A stretch of 37,486 nt of DNA from Paracoccus sp. (in: a-proteobacteria). GTDB lineage: Bacteria; Pseudomonadota; Alphaproteobacteria; Rhodobacterales; Rhodobacteraceae. Below the pieces are notes generated by a model. It was not told the DNA's origin, ran no database searches, and saw only the letters and a list, made by a program, of their open reading frames with translations. Shown one piece after another: positions 3,801-34,653 of this stretch; position 1 is the first letter of the stretch; each line of letters starts with the position of its first letter. The position numbers and the translations under genes were made by a program. The DNA is taken from the NCBI GenBank assembly GCA_030538425.1, contig JAUNTZ010000025.1, positions 1-37,486 on the forward strand, given 5' to 3'.

Positions 3801-3931
3801 ACGCGCGGCGGATGGGGCAACGCCGCCTTGCGCCCCCGAACTGACCGCCAAAGGGTTAGCCTTTTCAAATCCCGGGAACAATCGTCCGGCGCATGTGTTG
3901 TCTTGCAAATCTCTGAACAGATGGACAGATC

Positions 3932-28283: not shown

Positions 28284-28304
28284 GCCCGCCCCCTGAACAC
28301 GCTG

Positions 28305-28341
28305 ACCGGCGCAAGGCAACCCCTTGCGCCGGTTCTTTTTT
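28305..28341 (+). terminator. Intrinsic terminator of fadAB
   Basis: ACCGGCGCAAGG (28305-28316), CAACC loop, CCTTGCGCCGGT (28322-28333), then TCTTTTTT. Confidence 0.95.
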
Positions 28342-28385
28342 GTGCGCCCGCGCGCTGTCGCGGAACTTTCACTTGCAGCCGGTTG

Positions 28386-28413
28386 TTGATCTGCTTTGTA
28401 AAGCCCCTATGCT
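28386..28413 (+). promoter_or_regulatory. Candidate promoter of the telA cluster
   Basis: TTGATC (28386-28391) and TATGCT (28408-28413) with a 16-bp spacer, 30 bases before the telA start and downstream of the fadB terminator. The match is moderate. Confidence 0.35.
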
Positions 28414-28443: not shown

Positions 28444-29625
28444 ATGACCACCGAGACTCAGCGCAAGGCCGAAGCCCGACTGGACGAATTGCAAGAGGTG
28501 ACGGCGCTTGTGCTGCCCGAACCGCAAAATGAGATCGTCCAGCTGGAACAGGCCCCCGCGCCCGTGGCCGATGAGATCCGCCGCCGCATGGATGAGATCA
28601 ACCTGCGCGATACCGGATCGGTCGTGCATTTCGGCTCACGCGCGCAGGCGGGCTTGCAGGAAATCAGCCAGTCCATGCTGGCCGATGTCAAGAACAAGGA
28701 TGTGGGCCCGGCGGGCGAAAGCCTGCGCGATATCGTCGGCACGATTCGCGGCTTTTCGGTCTCGGAACTGGATGTGCGGCGCGAACGCTCATGGTGGGAA
28801 CGGCTGACCGGCCGGGCCGCGCCTTTCGCGCGGTTTGTGGCGCAATATGAAAACGTGCAGGGCCAGATCGACAAGATCACTGAAGACCTGCTGAGCCACG
28901 AACACCGCCTGCTGAAAGACATCAAATCGCTGGACGTGCTTTATGAACGCACGCTGGATTTTTATGACGAGCTTGCGCTTTATATCGCCGCCGGTGAGGC
29001 CAAGCTGCGTGAGCTGGACGAACAGGACATCCCCACGCTGGAAGAGGCCGTCCAGAACGCGCCCGAAGACGACAAGGTCATCCGCGCACAGGAATTGCGC
29101 GACCTGCGCGCGCTTCGCGACGATCTGGAACGCCGCGTCCATGACCTCAAGCTGACCCGTCAGGTCACGATGCAGTCGCTGCCCTCGATCCGGCTGGTGC
29201 AGGAAAACGACAAATCGCTGGTGACCAAGATCAACTCGACCTTGGTGAACACGGTGCCGCTGTGGGAAACCCAGCTTGCGCAGGCGGTCACCATCCAACG
29301 CTCGGTTGAGGCGGCGGGCGCGGTGCGTCAGGCGACCGATCTGACCAACGACCTCTTGACCGCCAATGCCAAGAACCTGCGTGAGGCCAATGTGCAGGTC
29401 CGCACCGAGATGGAGCGCGGCGTGTTCGATATCGAGGCCGTGCGGACCGCCAATGCCGAACTGATCGCCACCATCGAGGACAGCCTGCGCATCGCGGATG
29501 AAGGCAAGGCGCGTCGCGCCGCAGCGGAAGAAGAGCTGGTCAAGATGGAAGGTGAGTTGCGCGATACGCTGGCCTCGGCCCGTGCGCGTCAGGATCGCAG
29601 CCTCGGCGAGCCGGTCAATCTGTAA
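28444..29625 (+). CDS. telA: TelA/KlaA-family toxic anion resistance protein
   Basis: Almost entirely helical, soluble protein of the TelA family. The family is named from plasmid tellurite resistance and often sits in Ter-type stress and phage-response neighbourhoods; its molecular role is unknown. The 393-residue product shows the core VHFGSRAQAGLQEISQSMLA, SELDVRRERSWWERLTGRAA, YENVQGQIDKITEDLLSHEH, LLKDIKSLDVLYERTLDFYD, LPSIRLVQENDKSLVTKINS and VPLWETQLAQAV. Long heptad-like stretches predict coiled coils throughout. AAAGGA precedes the ATG. It is first of four or five genes in one direction with an SPFH and a zinc-ribbon membrane protein, which suggests a membrane-associated role. Confidence 0.93.
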   Translation: MTTETQRKAEARLDELQEVTALVLPEPQNEIVQLEQAPAPVADEIRRRMDEINLRDTGSVVHFGSRAQAGLQEISQSMLADVKNKDVGPAGESLRDIVGTIRGFSVSELDVRRERSWWERLTGRAAPFARFVAQYENVQGQIDKITEDLLSHEHRLLKDIKSLDVLYERTLDFYDELALYIAAGEAKLRELDEQDIPTLEEAVQNAPEDDKVIRAQELRDLRALRDDLERRVHDLKLTRQVTMQSLPSIRLVQENDKSLVTKINSTLVNTVPLWETQLAQAVTIQRSVEAAGAVRQATDLTNDLLTANAKNLREANVQVRTEMERGVFDIEAVRTANAELIATIEDSLRIADEGKARRAAAEEELVKMEGELRDTLASARARQDRSLGEPVNL

Positions 29626-29641
29626 CGGACAGGGCGCGCAG

Positions 29642-30781
29642 GTGCAGCAGGCGGAACAGGGAATAGCGGAACGCTTGACCAAGGCGCGGCATGACCCGCG
29701 TCCCGTCCCGCTGCGCGCTGTCCTGCTGCGTCCCGCCATTGCCGCGCCTGTGCTGCTATCGGCGGCGCTGTTCACGCTGACGTCGTGCGACCGGGCCGAG
29801 GCCCCGACCGCCACGCAGCCCGCGCCCGTCGCCTTGGCGCCCGAGCCGCGCCCGGACAATATCACCCCTCGGGCGGCCCCGCCCGCAGCACGCCCCAACG
29901 CCATCATCCGCGCCGCGCGGGTCGAAGAAAATATCCGCGCCGCAGGTCAGGCCCAAAGCCTGGCCCAAAACCCGGCCTCGCAGGCGCTGTCCTCTTATTA
30001 TCGCACGGTGCAGGGGGAATTGCTGTCGCGCAATTTGCTGCGCCCGGCCGATGCGGCCGATATTTCAGCCCTTGATGCCGCGACGCTGGCCCGCAACTTT
30101 GTCGATATCGCGCTTTACGACGAATATTACCGTGAGGGCGACCGGCTGATCCCCGGCCCCGTGCCCGCGCCCCTGCGCCGCTGGAACGATCCGGTGCGCG
30201 TGCAGATCGTGTTCGGCGAATCGGTCGCGCCCGCCGCCCGCACCCGCGACCGCGCCGCGATTGCACGCCAAAGTGCTGCGCTTGGCGCGATTTCAGGCCA
30301 TTCGGTCGCGGTCGTGCCTTCGGGCGGCAATTTCATCGTGATGGTCCTGTCCGAGGCCGAGCGCCGCGCGCTCTCGCCCACCGCCTATCCCGGCCTTGCC
30401 GATCTTCCGCCCGCCGATCTGGCCTCGATGCGCAACATGCCGCGCGACAATTACTGCGCGGTCTTTGCCTATTCGCTGGAGGGCCAGCCGGGCTATGTGC
30501 AGGCCGTGGCGCTGATCCGGTCGGAGCTGCCCTCTCGCCTGCGCCAGTCCTGCATCCATGAGGAACTGGCGCAGGGCATGGGGCTGGCCAATGACAGCCC
30601 GCGCGCGAACCCCTCGATTTTCAACGACAACATGACTTACGGCGAAATGACGCCGCATGATGCTTTGTTGCTGAAACTGCTTTACGACCCCCGCCTTCGC
30701 CCCGGCATGACTGAGGCTGAGGCAACCCCGATCATCCGGCGCATCGCGGGTGAGCTTGTCGCTCGCCCTTCCGCGCCCTAA
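29642..30781 (+). CDS. DUF2927 predicted lipoprotein with a metallopeptidase-like HEExxQ motif
   Basis: About 379 residues from GTG 29642; TTG 29675 is an alternative, and no in-frame ATG precedes the hydrophobic segment. The N-terminus is Arg-rich, then hydrophobic (AIAAPVLLSAALFTLTSC) with a lipobox-like LTSC, predicting a lipid-anchored periplasmic protein. A Pro/Ala-rich linker follows. The DUF2927 domain contains YRTVQGELLSRNLLR, DPVRVQIVFGESV, NYCAVFAYSLEG, LRQSCIHEELAQGMGLANDS and NPSIFNDNMTYGEMTPHDAL. HEELAQGMGL with the later acidic and histidine residues looks like a zinc-peptidase-type helix, but catalysis is unproven. It lies 16 bases after telA and 15 before the SPFH gene. Confidence 0.85.
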   Translation: MQQAEQGIAERLTKARHDPRPVPLRAVLLRPAIAAPVLLSAALFTLTSCDRAEAPTATQPAPVALAPEPRPDNITPRAAPPAARPNAIIRAARVEENIRAAGQAQSLAQNPASQALSSYYRTVQGELLSRNLLRPADAADISALDAATLARNFVDIALYDEYYREGDRLIPGPVPAPLRRWNDPVRVQIVFGESVAPAARTRDRAAIARQSAALGAISGHSVAVVPSGGNFIVMVLSEAERRALSPTAYPGLADLPPADLASMRNMPRDNYCAVFAYSLEGQPGYVQAVALIRSELPSRLRQSCIHEELAQGMGLANDSPRANPSIFNDNMTYGEMTPHDALLLKLLYDPRLRPGMTEAEATPIIRRIAGELVARPSAP

Positions 30782-30796
30782 CCGCAAGAGGCAGAC

Positions 30797-31930
30797 ATGG
30801 CCCTGTTCAATTTCCTTTCGGGTGAGTTCATCGACGTGATCGACTGGACCTCCGACAACCGCAACACGATGGTCTGGCGGTTCGAGCGGCGCGGCAACGC
30901 GATCAAATACGGCGCCAAGCTGACCGTGCGCGCGGGTCAGGCGGCGGTCTTTGTCCATGAAGGGCAGATTGCGGATGTGTTCGGCCCGGGGCTTTATATC
31001 CTTGAGACGAACAACATGCCGATCCTGACAACGCTTCAGCATTGGGATCACGGCTTTCGCTCACCCTTCAAGTCCGAGATCTATTTCGTCAACACCACCC
31101 GTTTCAACAACCTGAAATGGGGCACCCGCAACCCGATCATCGCCCGCGACCCCGAATTCGGCCCGGTGCGCATCCGCGCCTTCGGCACCTATTCGATGCG
31201 TGTCACCGATCCCGCGCGGTTCATGGCGGAAATCGTCGGCACCGATGGCGAGTTCAGCTCGGATGAGATCACCTTCCAGCTGCGCAATGTCATCGTGCAA
31301 GAGTTCTCGCGCATGATTGCGGGCTCTGGCATTCCGGTTCTGGACATGGCCTCGAATACCGATCAGCTGGGCAAGATGGTCGCCAAGGCGATTGCGCCGA
31401 CGATTGCGAATTACGGGCTGACTATCCCCGAATTCTATATTGAAAACATCAGCCTGCCCGATGAAGTTGAGGCGATGCTGGACAAGCGCACCTCAATGGG
31501 CATTGTCGGTGATCTGGACCGTTTCGGCCAATATGCGCAGGCCGAGGCGATGCTGAACGCCTCGCAGAACCAGGGCGGCGCGGGGGCCGGTCTGGGCGCG
31601 GGCATGGGTGCCGCGCTTGGCATGGGGATGGCCGCGGGGCGCGGGCCATGGGGTCCGGTCAGCGCGCAGGCGCAGCCGCAAGGTGCCGGCGGTGCCATGC
31701 CGCCGCCGCTCCCGCCCAAAGCCTCGGAAACCGTCTGGCATATCGCGGCGGGCGGTGAGGCCGACGGGCCTTATGGGCGCGGGCATCTGGGCCGGATGGT
31801 CAAGGATGGCAGCTTTACCCGCGAAACCCTTGTCTGGTCGCCCGGTCAGGACGGCTGGAAACCCGCCGATGAGGTGGACGAGCTGGCGCAGCTGTTCACC
31901 ATCGCGCCGCCCCCGCCCCCCGCAAGCTGA
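30797..31930 (+). CDS. SPFH-domain protein with C-terminal GYF_2 domain (YdjI-like)
   Basis: Scaffold-type protein of the SPFH/Band-7 superfamily, in the group sometimes labelled virion core protein, to which B. subtilis YdjI belongs. The 377-residue product has the N-terminal FNFLSGEFIDVIDWTSDNRN and YGAKLTVRAGQAAVFVHEGQ. The SPFH core spans about 60-240 (VFGPGLYILETNNMPILTTL, VRIRAFGTYSMRVTDPARF, YGLTIPEFYIENISLP, MLDKRTSMGIVGDLDRFGQY). A Gly/Ala/Met/Pro linker follows (about 258-310), then a GYF_2 peptide-binding domain (313-370: VWHIAAGGEADGPYGRGHLG and VWSPGQDGWKPADEV). It lacks a transmembrane helix, so membrane contact would be through partners. AAGAGG precedes the ATG. Confidence 0.92.
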   Translation: MALFNFLSGEFIDVIDWTSDNRNTMVWRFERRGNAIKYGAKLTVRAGQAAVFVHEGQIADVFGPGLYILETNNMPILTTLQHWDHGFRSPFKSEIYFVNTTRFNNLKWGTRNPIIARDPEFGPVRIRAFGTYSMRVTDPARFMAEIVGTDGEFSSDEITFQLRNVIVQEFSRMIAGSGIPVLDMASNTDQLGKMVAKAIAPTIANYGLTIPEFYIENISLPDEVEAMLDKRTSMGIVGDLDRFGQYAQAEAMLNASQNQGGAGAGLGAGMGAALGMGMAAGRGPWGPVSAQAQPQGAGGAMPPPLPPKASETVWHIAAGGEADGPYGRGHLGRMVKDGSFTRETLVWSPGQDGWKPADEVDELAQLFTIAPPPPPAS

Positions 31931-31950
31931 CCTAATCCTCCGGGGCTGAT

Positions 31951-32020
31951 TGCGGGTCTTTTGTCCGCAAATATCCCCGGGGGGGAACCGCCGCAGGCGG
32001 TGGGGGGCAGGCAGCCCCCC
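31951..32020 (+). repeat. AAATATCCC extragenic repeat, copy C
   Basis: TCTTTTGTCCGCAAATATCC then CCGGGGGGG, followed by two hairpins: ACCGCC-GCA-GGCGGT and GGGGGGC (32002-32008) with GCCCCCC (32014-32020). Element order is identical to copy B at 17963-18026. It fills most of the 122-base gap inside the telA cluster and may reduce expression of the genes behind it. Confidence 0.75.
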
Positions 32021-32052
32021 GCTCGCTTCACCATTCAGGGCCACGCATCAAC

Positions 32053-33324
32053 ATGCCGACACCCCCCAGCCAATACCGCTTTCCCTGCGAAAGCTGCGGC
32101 GGCAGCCTTCGGTTCAGCCCCGGCGATTCCGAGCTGACCTGCCCGTTCTGCGGCCACCGCCAGCAGATCTCTCCCGGTGCGGCCCGCGCCCCCGCCCGCC
32201 AGAGCGCCGAGGGGGCCGAGGGCGATGAGCTGTTGCTGCGCGACCCCTCGACCGGGCGGGCGCTGCAATGGGACGGGGGCCGCAAATCGGCGGGGCTCAA
32301 TGAGATCCCGCTGGAAAAGGGGCTGCGGCTGGATGCGGCCTCGGACCTCGCGCAAGAGATCCGCACGCTGTCTTGCCCCAATTGCGGGGCGCGGTTTGAT
32401 CTGGACAGCACGCATCACTCGACCAATTGCCCGTTCTGCGCGACGCCGGTCGTCACCGATAACGGCCGTACCCGCCAGATCAAGCCGCAGGCCGTCCTGC
32501 CCTTCGTCGTGACCGAGGATCAGGCGCGCGGCGCGCTGGACGACTGGCTGGGCAGCCTGTGGTTCGCGCCCTCGGGCCTGACCGCCTATGCGCGACGGGC
32601 GCGGCGCATGGCCGGGGTCTATTCGCCCTTCTGGACCTTCGATGCCGACACCAGATCAAGCTATGCCGGACAGCGCGGCGATTATTATTATGTGACCGTC
32701 TGGGTCACCGACAGCGAGGGGCGACGGGTCGCGCGGCAGGAACGCCGCACCCGCTGGCGCCCGGCAAGCGGGCGGGTCGCGCGGCACTTCGACGATGTTC
32801 TGGTGCTGGCCTCCTCATCCCTGCCGCGCCGCTTTACCGATGCTCTGACGCCTTGGGATCTGTCGCATCTGCGTGAATATAACCCGCAATTCCTCTCGGG
32901 CTTTGAGGCCGAGGGCTATACAATCGCGCTTGCCGATGGCCACCAGATCGCGCGGCAGGAAATGGCCGGGGTGATCGCGATGGATGTGCGCCGCGACATT
33001 GGCGGCGATGTGCAGCAGATCAGCAGCCTGAACACCGAACACAGCGCCGAGACATTCAAGCATATCCTCCTGCCGGTCTGGTCCGCCGCCTATAAATATA
33101 ACGGCAAATCCTATCGCTTTGTGGTCAACGGCCAGTCGGGCCGCGTGCAGGGTGAGCGGCCTTACTCGATCTGGAAAATCGCGGCGGCGGTTCTGGTCGC
33201 GGCGCTTGCCATCGCGGTCTTCGTTCTGGCCACGCAGGGCGGCAATATCCGCATCGGCGCCGCGCCGCCTGCCGTTGTGACCGCCGAAGCCATCCCCGAC
33301 ATCATGCCAAGGTTGCGCCTATGA
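32053..33324 (+). CDS. Zinc-ribbon, single-pass membrane protein (YdjG-like)
   Basis: A 423-residue protein with two zinc ribbons near the N-terminus: CESC/CPFC (Cys12, 15, 30, 33) and CPNC/CPFC (Cys108, 111, 126, 129). A large middle domain follows with PFVVTEDQARGALDDWLGSL, GVYSPFWTFDADTRSSYAGQ, RDIGGDVQQISSLNTEHSAE and FKHILLPVWSAAYKYNGKSY. A transmembrane helix (about 375-397, IWKIAAAVLVAALAIAVFVL) and a short tail close it. Such proteins are often mislabelled as PriA-like or TFIIB zinc-finger proteins. B. subtilis YdjG, a partner of the SPFH protein YdjI, has this architecture as I recall it. The ATG overlaps the next gene as ATGA. Confidence 0.88.
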   Translation: MPTPPSQYRFPCESCGGSLRFSPGDSELTCPFCGHRQQISPGAARAPARQSAEGAEGDELLLRDPSTGRALQWDGGRKSAGLNEIPLEKGLRLDAASDLAQEIRTLSCPNCGARFDLDSTHHSTNCPFCATPVVTDNGRTRQIKPQAVLPFVVTEDQARGALDDWLGSLWFAPSGLTAYARRARRMAGVYSPFWTFDADTRSSYAGQRGDYYYVTVWVTDSEGRRVARQERRTRWRPASGRVARHFDDVLVLASSSLPRRFTDALTPWDLSHLREYNPQFLSGFEAEGYTIALADGHQIARQEMAGVIAMDVRRDIGGDVQQISSLNTEHSAETFKHILLPVWSAAYKYNGKSYRFVVNGQSGRVQGERPYSIWKIAAAVLVAALAIAVFVLATQGGNIRIGAAPPAVVTAEAIPDIMPRLRL

Positions 33325-34238
33325 TCCTTTGTTGCGGTGAATCGCTGATCGACATGGTGCCCGAGGGCGACGCTTTCCGCCCCCTGCCCGGCGGCGCGGT
33401 GTTCAATACCGCCATTGCGCTTGGCCGGCTTGGCGCGCAGGCGGGCTATCTCTGGCCCCTGTCGCGCGACCGCTTCGGGCAAAGGCTGGCGCAGGCGCTT
33501 GACGATGCGCGGGTCGGGCGCGAGCTGTGCCCCGCCACCGACCGCCCGACCACGCTGGCTTTCGTGCATCTCTCCGATACGGGTGAGGCGCAATACAGCT
33601 TCTACGACGAAGGCAGCGCGGGCCGCATGTTTGAGCCCGCCGCCCTCCCCGCCCTGCCCGAGGGGCTGGAGGCGCTGTTCATCGGCGGCATCAGCCTGAC
33701 GCAGGAACCTTGCGGCACCGCGGTTGAGGAACTTGCGCTGCGGGCCGCACAGGCTGGCATCACGGTGATGATCGACCCCAATATCCGCCCTGCCTTCATC
33801 AACCATGAGGCCGAGACCCGCGCCCGCATCGGTCGTCTGCTGAGGCTGGCCTCCATTGTGAAACTCTCGGATGACGACCGCGCATGGCTGTTTCCGGGGC
33901 AAGACGCGGACGAATTGGCCGCCCAGATGGATGACAGCGGCGTGCGTCTGCTGCTGTTGACCGGCGGCGCGCAGGGGGCCACGGCGATCTGCGGTGCGCA
34001 TCGCCACCACCACCCCGCGCCCGAGGTCGAACTCGCCGACACGATCGGCGCGGGTGACACGTTCAATGCAGGGCTTCTGGCCGCCCTGGCCGCGCAGGGG
34101 GCCTTGTCCCCTGACCGATTGGCCGCCTTGGATGAGACCGGCTTGCAGGCCGCGCTGGACCTCGCCAGCCGAGCGGCAGCGGTCACCGTCTCGCGCGCAG
34201 GCGCAAACCCGCCATGGGCGCATGAGCTGGGGCTTTGA
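33321..34238 (+). CDS. PfkB-family sugar kinase (fructokinase-like)
   Basis: Ribokinase-fold carbohydrate kinase of 305 residues. It opens with CCGESLIDMVPEG and LPGGAVFNTAIALGRLGAQA and ends with the PfkB signature DTIGAGDTFNAGLLAALAAQ, where the Asp of GAGD is the catalytic base. It also shows VMIDPNIRPAFI and VKLSDDDRAWLFPG. The pattern is closest to fructokinases; 2-keto-3-deoxygluconate kinase is an alternative. It overlaps the zinc-ribbon gene by ATGA, so it is translated with the telA cluster, although a functional link is not obvious. Confidence 0.9.
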   Translation: MILCCGESLIDMVPEGDAFRPLPGGAVFNTAIALGRLGAQAGYLWPLSRDRFGQRLAQALDDARVGRELCPATDRPTTLAFVHLSDTGEAQYSFYDEGSAGRMFEPAALPALPEGLEALFIGGISLTQEPCGTAVEELALRAAQAGITVMIDPNIRPAFINHEAETRARIGRLLRLASIVKLSDDDRAWLFPGQDADELAAQMDDSGVRLLLLTGGAQGATAICGAHRHHHPAPEVELADTIGAGDTFNAGLLAALAAQGALSPDRLAALDETGLQAALDLASRAAAVTVSRAGANPPWAHELGL

Positions 34239-34288: not shown

Positions 34289-34348
34289 GGCCGAGAGACG
34301 CGGCCAATCATGGCGACCAGAACGGCACATCATCGAAAGCGCCTCGCC
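34289..34348 (+). repeat. 60-bp direct repeat, copy 1
   Basis: Core GGCGACCAGAACGGCACATC then ATCGAAAGCGCCTCGCC. The last 44 bases differ from copy 2 at only one position; the first 16 are about 75 percent identical. Confidence 0.85.
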
Positions 34349-34593: not shown

Positions 34594-34653
34594 GGCCGAG
34601 CAACGTGGTCAATCGTGGCGACCAGAACGGCACATCATCGAAAGCGCCTCGCC
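34594..34653 (+). repeat. 60-bp direct repeat, copy 2
   Basis: Offset from copy 1 is 305 bases. Its last 18 bases (CATCGAAAGCGCCTCGCC) recur once more at 34663-34680 with one change, so the end of the unit has itself been tandemly copied. Confidence 0.85.

Follow-up and report, generated by a model that had tools for sequence, protein, structure and literature searches.

Which function, if any, brings together a protein of the toxic anion resistance family (TelA), a predicted DUF2927 lipoprotein, an SPFH protein with a C-terminal GYF_2 domain, a double zinc-ribbon membrane protein and a PfkB-family sugar kinase is the question raised by a five-gene cluster of Paracoccus. The window, i.e., the whole stretch of DNA analysed here, corresponds to one contig (37,486 bases) of a 92-contig, 2.69 Mb Paracoccus assembly (86.6% complete), and its features are collected in Table 1. 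We propose that the cluster specifies a stress-induced membrane-protection complex derived from two merged modules, XpaC-TelA and SPFH-zinc ribbon, a reading to which we give a probability of about 0.45.

Conservation of the cluster in the genus and the family

The genes run in one direction, in the order telA-DUF2927-SPFH-zinc ribbon-pfkB, behind a terminator-like hairpin, and the open reading frames (ORFs) bear out this arrangement as it had been given in a preliminary description of the window. TelA was found in 17 of 18 same-genus relatives, and the five-gene order is kept in all 16 loci of the genus that are not cut by a contig end, the contig of the 17th stopping inside the SPFH gene. 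The SPFH protein of the window shares 73-76% identity with five named Paracoccus plasmid records, and Paracoccus ferrooxidans has the same order, publicly annotated as toxic anion resistance protein, DUF2927, SPFH, zinc ribbon and carbohydrate kinase.

Across the family to which Paracoccus belongs (120 genomes from 119 genera, the counts being of genomes and not of independent events), TelA was detected in 105 genomes, DUF2927 in 114, the SPFH domain Band_7_1 in 106 (105 strong matches and 1 weak) and the zinc-ribbon protein in 105. TelA and a strong Band_7_1 match were both present in 104 genomes, both absent in 14 and discordant in 2, and the presence of TelA and of the zinc-ribbon protein was concordant in 114. 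Among the matches listed, DUF2927 lies no more than 0.6 kb after TelA in 92 of 94 genomes, and at least 81 of the 120 carry TelA, DUF2927, SPFH and zinc ribbon in that order on the same strand, the remainder including contig breaks. The four families, which the preliminary description had grouped together, do co-occur and are mostly adjacent throughout the family. The PfkB kinase, whose gene closes the block in Paracoccus and varies elsewhere, is probably a passenger.

XpaC and a candidate microprotein

The most tightly linked partner of TelA was missed in that grouping, as in Paracoccus it lies elsewhere. This is XpaC (PF10112, Halogen_Hydrol; about 290-340 aa), a membrane protein predicted to have two helices, whose gene lies directly 5' of telA in most other genera. 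The family genomes in which XpaC exceeds the Pfam cut-off are precisely the 105 that bear TelA, and xpaC is adjacent upstream of telA in 102 of them; the exceptions are G134, the window's genome and one of its congeners. In a sample of named loci (best 80 of a longer list), XpaC is directly upstream of telA in 59 and absent from this place in 17, all of them Paracoccus, with too little sequence in the remaining 4; outside Paracoccus, each of the 59 loci whose upstream sequence is long enough has XpaC immediately ahead of telA, at a median gap of 26.5 nt. The window's genome encodes both TelA (PF05816) and XpaC, on different contigs, with xpaC on contig C27 (L062:9204-10268) beside a gene that reads as truA (named by eye). 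In Paracoccus the genes from telA to pfkB have remained together, and xpaC is no longer there. A congener carries a second, shorter TelA (L041:6246-7121; 291 aa) away from the cluster, with 63% identity to the TelA of the window over the matched part.

A search by script found, in 59 of 62 loci, an ORF of 23-39 codons ahead of xpaC that encodes a single hydrophobic helix (profile consensus MSGTGLQKLAFVLLVVLILYVSTGGGL) and whose end falls anywhere from 4 nt within xpaC to 9 nt short of its start; among the loci missed by the script, L064 has one by eye and none is seen in L102. When applied to the starts of other genes, this rule returned 0/79 for TelA, 0/78 for DUF2927, 0/73 for SPFH and 1/70 for the zinc-ribbon protein. 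Pairwise differences within the 27-codon class fall mostly in the third codon position (0.55 vs 0.36 and 0.23), a pattern as in coding sequence. Four sequences searched against Pfam and NCBIfam gave no match, and we regard this microprotein as a candidate new component. In the window's genome it is kept with xpaC on contig C27, as a 26-codon ORF upstream of the gene.

Two modules that occur apart outside the family

In a phylum survey of 299 genomes, ten genomes outside the family had XpaC above the cut-off, nine with TelA above the cut-off and seven within 3 kb. Vibrio, Comamonas and Tsukamurella plasmids carry SPFH-zinc-ribbon pairs that have no TelA within 9 kb, and the zinc-ribbon proteins of these pairs align over their length at 32-34% identity. 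Because the XpaC-TelA and SPFH-zinc-ribbon modules occur apart elsewhere, the family cluster is best read as a merger of the two. TelA modules also acquire other extracytoplasmic partners, as in G022 and G199, where TelA is followed by a solute-binding and VWA fusion protein with a lipobox-like start (L155:7309-8880 and L039:6661-8547), with XpaC further along the same stretch (a profile match in L039; also in G199). On a Vibrio coralliilyticus plasmid (L067:5093-11154), the SPFH-GYF_2 and zinc-ribbon genes lie near those of a TIR-domain protein and of a protein with weak WD40/beta-propeller matches, and a defence setting is possible.

The occurrence of the modules apart from each other also fits the alternative that survives best, although we consider it unlikely, namely that XpaC-TelA and SPFH-zinc ribbon are two independent envelope modules standing side by side by vertical synteny, without forming a joint machine. 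Several observations weigh against a common complex. The housekeeping neighbours tadA, rluB and dtd likewise keep their position, so part of the synteny of the cluster is vertical inheritance. Outside the family, six of the sampled genomes have both TelA and a strong Band_7_1 match, and in none of them were the two seen next to each other, as they are on different contigs in five and 129 kb apart in one. Within the family, TelA and SPFH are 37 kb apart in G048 and on different contigs in G092, G113 and G034, L152 is without SPFH within 10 kb, and in G123 a 330-aa protein without Pfam match (L056:11129-12121) replaces DUF2927 between telA and SPFH; DUF2927 is also found elsewhere without TelA. 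On the other hand, the presence of TelA and SPFH is concordant in 118 of the 120 genomes, and in Paracoccus the block from telA to pfkB has persisted without xpaC. In G320, a member of another family, XpaC-TelA moreover adjoins a GYF_2 protein (8.8e-10) with a sub-threshold Band_7_1 match (0.0027), which matches the profile of the family's SPFH protein at 8e-8. We retain the merged complex as the preferred reading.

In Gemmobacter caeruleus (L117), the SPFH and zinc-ribbon genes are inverted, yet directly after DUF2927; they therefore share no transcript with telA, though proximity is kept.

Relatives in envelope-stress regulons

The envelope-stress setting proposed in the preliminary description agrees with published work, since relatives of both halves of the cluster belong to envelope-stress regulons of Firmicutes, and a membrane-stress role of the cluster is plausible. 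The sigma-W regulon of B. subtilis includes both xpaC-yaaN and pspA-ydjG-ydjH-ydjI (PMC3498285, excerpt). In L. lactis, an XpaC-like gene and telA1 are part of the CesSR response and are up on membrane-protein overproduction (table values 10.3 and 3.44), and their double deletion partly impaired growth under this condition (PMC3139573, excerpt). The xpaC-telA genes of Listeria rise slightly (log2 0.6) with bacteriocin, and a listeria telA mutant was 2-fold more susceptible to tellurite and 4-fold more to nisin (PMC12791056, citing Collins 2010, excerpt); the same 2026 paper, in the part cited, still calls the mechanism of TelA unknown.

YdjI of B. subtilis is likely a soluble SPFH protein that requires YdjG/YdjH for its recruitment to the membrane (PMC8581546, excerpt). 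Likened by architecture, the cluster and pspA-ydjG-ydjH-ydjI both comprise a likely soluble SPFH protein and a membrane protein with two zinc ribbons. The B. subtilis operon, however, includes PspA, of which none was found in the window's genome, and YdjI ends in a zinc ribbon, whereas the SPFH protein of the window ends in GYF_2 plus PPPxP; the family cluster further adds TelA, XpaC and DUF2927. A Pfam search of the five cluster proteins gave no match to YdjH/TPM, the rest of the genome not being searched for TPM. With the Firmicutes xpaC-telA (yaaN) operons (sigma-W, CesSR) the family shares the adjacency and co-occurrence of TelA and XpaC, but here these are joined with SPFH, zinc ribbon and DUF2927, and XpaC is unlinked in Paracoccus. 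The PspA-linked band-7 operons (polyamine, DUF4178, DUF350) have in common with the cluster a band-7 protein as organiser, but differ from it in the partners and the C-terminal domain; a Novosphingobium locus (L071) resembles a published variant of these operons.

Very unlikely, in our view, is a tellurite- or metal-handling operon, in which TelA-XpaC with TerC would handle metal ions and the acidic DUF2927 site would bind one. The family name TelA and the tellurite susceptibility of the listeria mutant fit this idea, as does TerC shortly upstream of xpaC in 14 of 59 loci (one TerC confirmed by Pfam), but TerC is not beside xpaC in the other 45, nor in the cluster of the window, and the nisin effect exceeded the tellurite effect in the excerpted listeria report.

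SPFH protein, GYF_2 tail and zinc-ribbon protein

In none of the 74 named loci does the SPFH protein have a hydrophobic helix, and no signal is predicted for it. In all 74, GYF_2 is followed at the C-terminus by a PPP[PLV]P tail, which starts 3 residues past the last GYF_2 motif in the 72 measurable loci; a comparable terminal proline count was seen in 20 of 423 other picked ORF products (29 loci). The same arrangement is present in Vibrio, Tsukamurella and Bacteroides plasmid proteins, and other C-terminal ends replace GYF_2 in the SPFH proteins of Comamonas and Novosphingobium. The paper on SHOCT describes that domain as most often associated with Band_7_1.

Binding of GYF_2 to the linker of the DUF2927 protein, as suggested earlier, is unlikely, as this linker is predicted on the other side of the membrane. 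Since the SPFH protein is predicted to be soluble, the DUF2927 protein is predicted to be a lipoprotein and the PPPxP tail is present in every one of the 74 proteins, the more likely ligand, judging from sequence, is the SPFH protein's own tail, of the same or a neighbouring subunit. This pair of GYF domain and tail suggests an assembly rule for SPFH scaffolds present in several phyla.

The zinc-ribbon protein gives sub-threshold Pfam zinc-ribbon matches, and its two CxxC-CxxC ribbons and single C-terminal hydrophobic helix agree with its initial description as a double zinc-ribbon single-pass membrane protein.

TelA and PspA

TelA is predicted to be all-helical, without a hydrophobic helix. 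A PF04012 search did not find PspA in the window's genome, where loss to assembly gaps is possible at the completeness given above. In the family, PspA is above the Pfam cut-off in 22 of 120 genomes and below it or absent in 98, so that the supposed lack of pspA is supported for most of the family and, within the limit of completeness, for the window's genome, but not for those 22. PspA occurs in 19 of the 105 genomes with TelA vs 3 of the 15 without (Fisher p = 1), and because its presence is unrelated to that of TelA, TelA is not a mutually exclusive substitute for PspA. The TelA profile, searched against PDB sequences with E up to 1, matched no solved PspA.

The model of the preliminary description, in which the SPFH scaffold recruits TelA as a functional stand-in for PspA and GYF_2 binds the DUF2927 linker, draws on the rarity of PspA in the family and on the resemblance of the SPFH and zinc-ribbon proteins to the published YdjI/YdjG architectures, but is the least probable of the explanations given the lack of TelA-PspA complementarity and of PspA among the PDB sequence matches at E up to 1, the SPFH protein's own tail and the predicted side of the linker. 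The co-occurrence, the adjacency and the stress-regulon relatives of the earlier interpretation persist, whereas the exclusion between TelA and PspA and the GYF_2-linker binding do not.

A predicted matrixin fold in the DUF2927 lipoprotein

The DUF2927 protein of the window has the lipobox LTSC with Cys49, and a lipobox-like signal is seen in 60 of 78 loci. A matrixin-like (metalloprotease) fold is predicted for residues 152-351. The zinc site of matrixins is HExxHxxGxxH, and at its proposed place DUF2927 has EExxQxxGxxND, in a register that was inferred and not superposed. E307, E308, G314 and D318 are found in 96 of 96 DUF2927 sequences and Q311 in 95. The HEExxQ-type motif noted at first is conserved in its EExxQ part; the H is not general, preceding EExxQ in 78 of 79 cluster proteins vs 2 of 17 other DUF2927 proteins, and the signature is EExxQxxGxxND. 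DUF2927 thus shares a predicted metzincin/matrixin fold with matrixins such as MMP-7 and karilysin, but in the inferred register their zinc histidines are replaced by E, Q and N and the Met of the Met-turn by Phe. Because the zinc histidines are replaced in this register, DUF2927 is probably not an ordinary protease. The predicted fold offers a structural hypothesis for this uncharacterised family.

Regulation

The terminator-like hairpin upstream of telA has 13 pairs, of which 9 are G-C, and a T run, the following sequence being CTTTTTTG; the terminator scan overall was not above shuffles (6 sites vs a mean of 7.0). A predicted promoter motif, GGAAC-N17-20-GTT, is present in 24 of 33 distinct telA upstream regions of Paracoccus, which are from related species, against a background of 40 in 2858 windows of 250 nt from the same loci. 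This is the EcfG motif reported for Sphingomonas melonis (PMC6599016), and the PhyR-EcfG cascade of Rhodobacter sphaeroides acts in membrane stress (PMC5830050, excerpt). Stress induction is made less certain by the absence of the EcfG-type site from 9 of the 33 regions, by the overlap of its GTT with a sigma-70-like -35 element and by its absence from all 59 xpaC upstream regions of other genera; it was likewise found in 0 of 60 telA upstream regions of other genera. Of the 33 regions, 20 have a sigma-70-like site built on the same GTTGA, 11 have both kinds, and 13 have only the site of the extracytoplasmic function (ECF) type. A second EcfG-type match, GGAAC-N17-GTT, lies at window position 3875 (+).

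Proposed mechanism and implications

In the complex that we prefer, XpaC, encoded elsewhere in the window's genome with the tiny single-helix ORF beside it, would keep TelA, a helical protein, at the membrane. The SPFH protein, itself soluble, would assemble into an oligomeric scaffold that the zinc-ribbon protein tethers with its C-terminal helix; contacts between GYF_2 domains of the SPFH protein and the PPPxP tails of its subunits would cross-link or gate this scaffold. On the outer side, the lipoprotein of the DUF2927 family, with a predicted matrixin fold and no zinc histidines, would bind unfolded peptide or metal without cutting and might report or buffer envelope damage. Going by the promoter motif, an EcfG-type sigma factor may raise transcription in many Paracoccus.

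A bolder version, which we think rather improbable, would be a PspA-independent membrane-repair machine. XpaC and the microprotein would hold TelA, which would act on an SPFH scaffold whose assembly depends on GYF_2 domains binding PPPxP tails of adjacent subunits, and a periplasmic pseudo-matrixin lipoprotein coupled to this machine would sense misfolded envelope protein; DUF2927 would then be a widespread matrixin-fold family whose zinc site was exchanged for a new function.

TelA and XpaC were named from phenotypes, tellurite and indolyl phosphate hydrolysis, respectively. In 102 of the 120 family genomes they are accompanied by an SPFH scaffold and the zinc-ribbon membrane protein, which gives them a concrete partner set. 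These data suggest that the family cluster unites two envelope-protection modules that are separate in other bacteria, plus a lipoprotein resembling a disabled protease, which, if true, would amount to membrane guarding free of PspA.

Features of the window

The start of pfkB overlaps the end of the zinc-ribbon gene by 4 nt. The Pfam E-values were 8.8e-106 for TelA, 4.8e-58 for DUF2927, 3.7e-104 for Band_7_1, 4.1e-17 for GYF_2 and 2.2e-40 for PfkB.

Table 1. Genes, domains and predicted regulatory sites of the cluster, in window coordinates.
Feature	Position	Strand	Basis
telA, TelA (toxic anion resistance family), 393 aa	28444..29625	+	ORF and Pfam
DUF2927 predicted lipoprotein, 379 aa, GTG start	29642..30781	+	ORF and Pfam
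SPFH (Band_7_1) protein with C-terminal GYF_2	30797..31930	+	ORF and Pfam
GYF_2 domain of SPFH protein, residues 314-363	31736..31885	+	Pfam
PPPPP tail at C-terminus of SPFH protein, residues 371-375	31907..31921	+	Sequence
Double zinc-ribbon protein, one C-terminal hydrophobic helix, residues 376-394	32053..33324	+	Sequence and helix prediction
PfkB-family sugar kinase	33321..34238	+	ORF and Pfam
Intrinsic-terminator-like hairpin between fadB-like upstream gene and cluster	28304..28334	+	Hairpin scan
EcfG/ECF-type promoter-like site, GGAAC-N18-GTT	28362..28387	+	Motif match
Sigma-70-like site, TTGATC-N16-TATGCT, overlapping the ECF-type site	28386..28413	+	Motif match
EExxQxxGxxND signature of DUF2927 protein, residues 307-318	30560..30595	+	Sequence

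A 60-nt direct repeat, 92% identical, is located 3' of pfkB at window positions 34289-34348 and 34594-34653.

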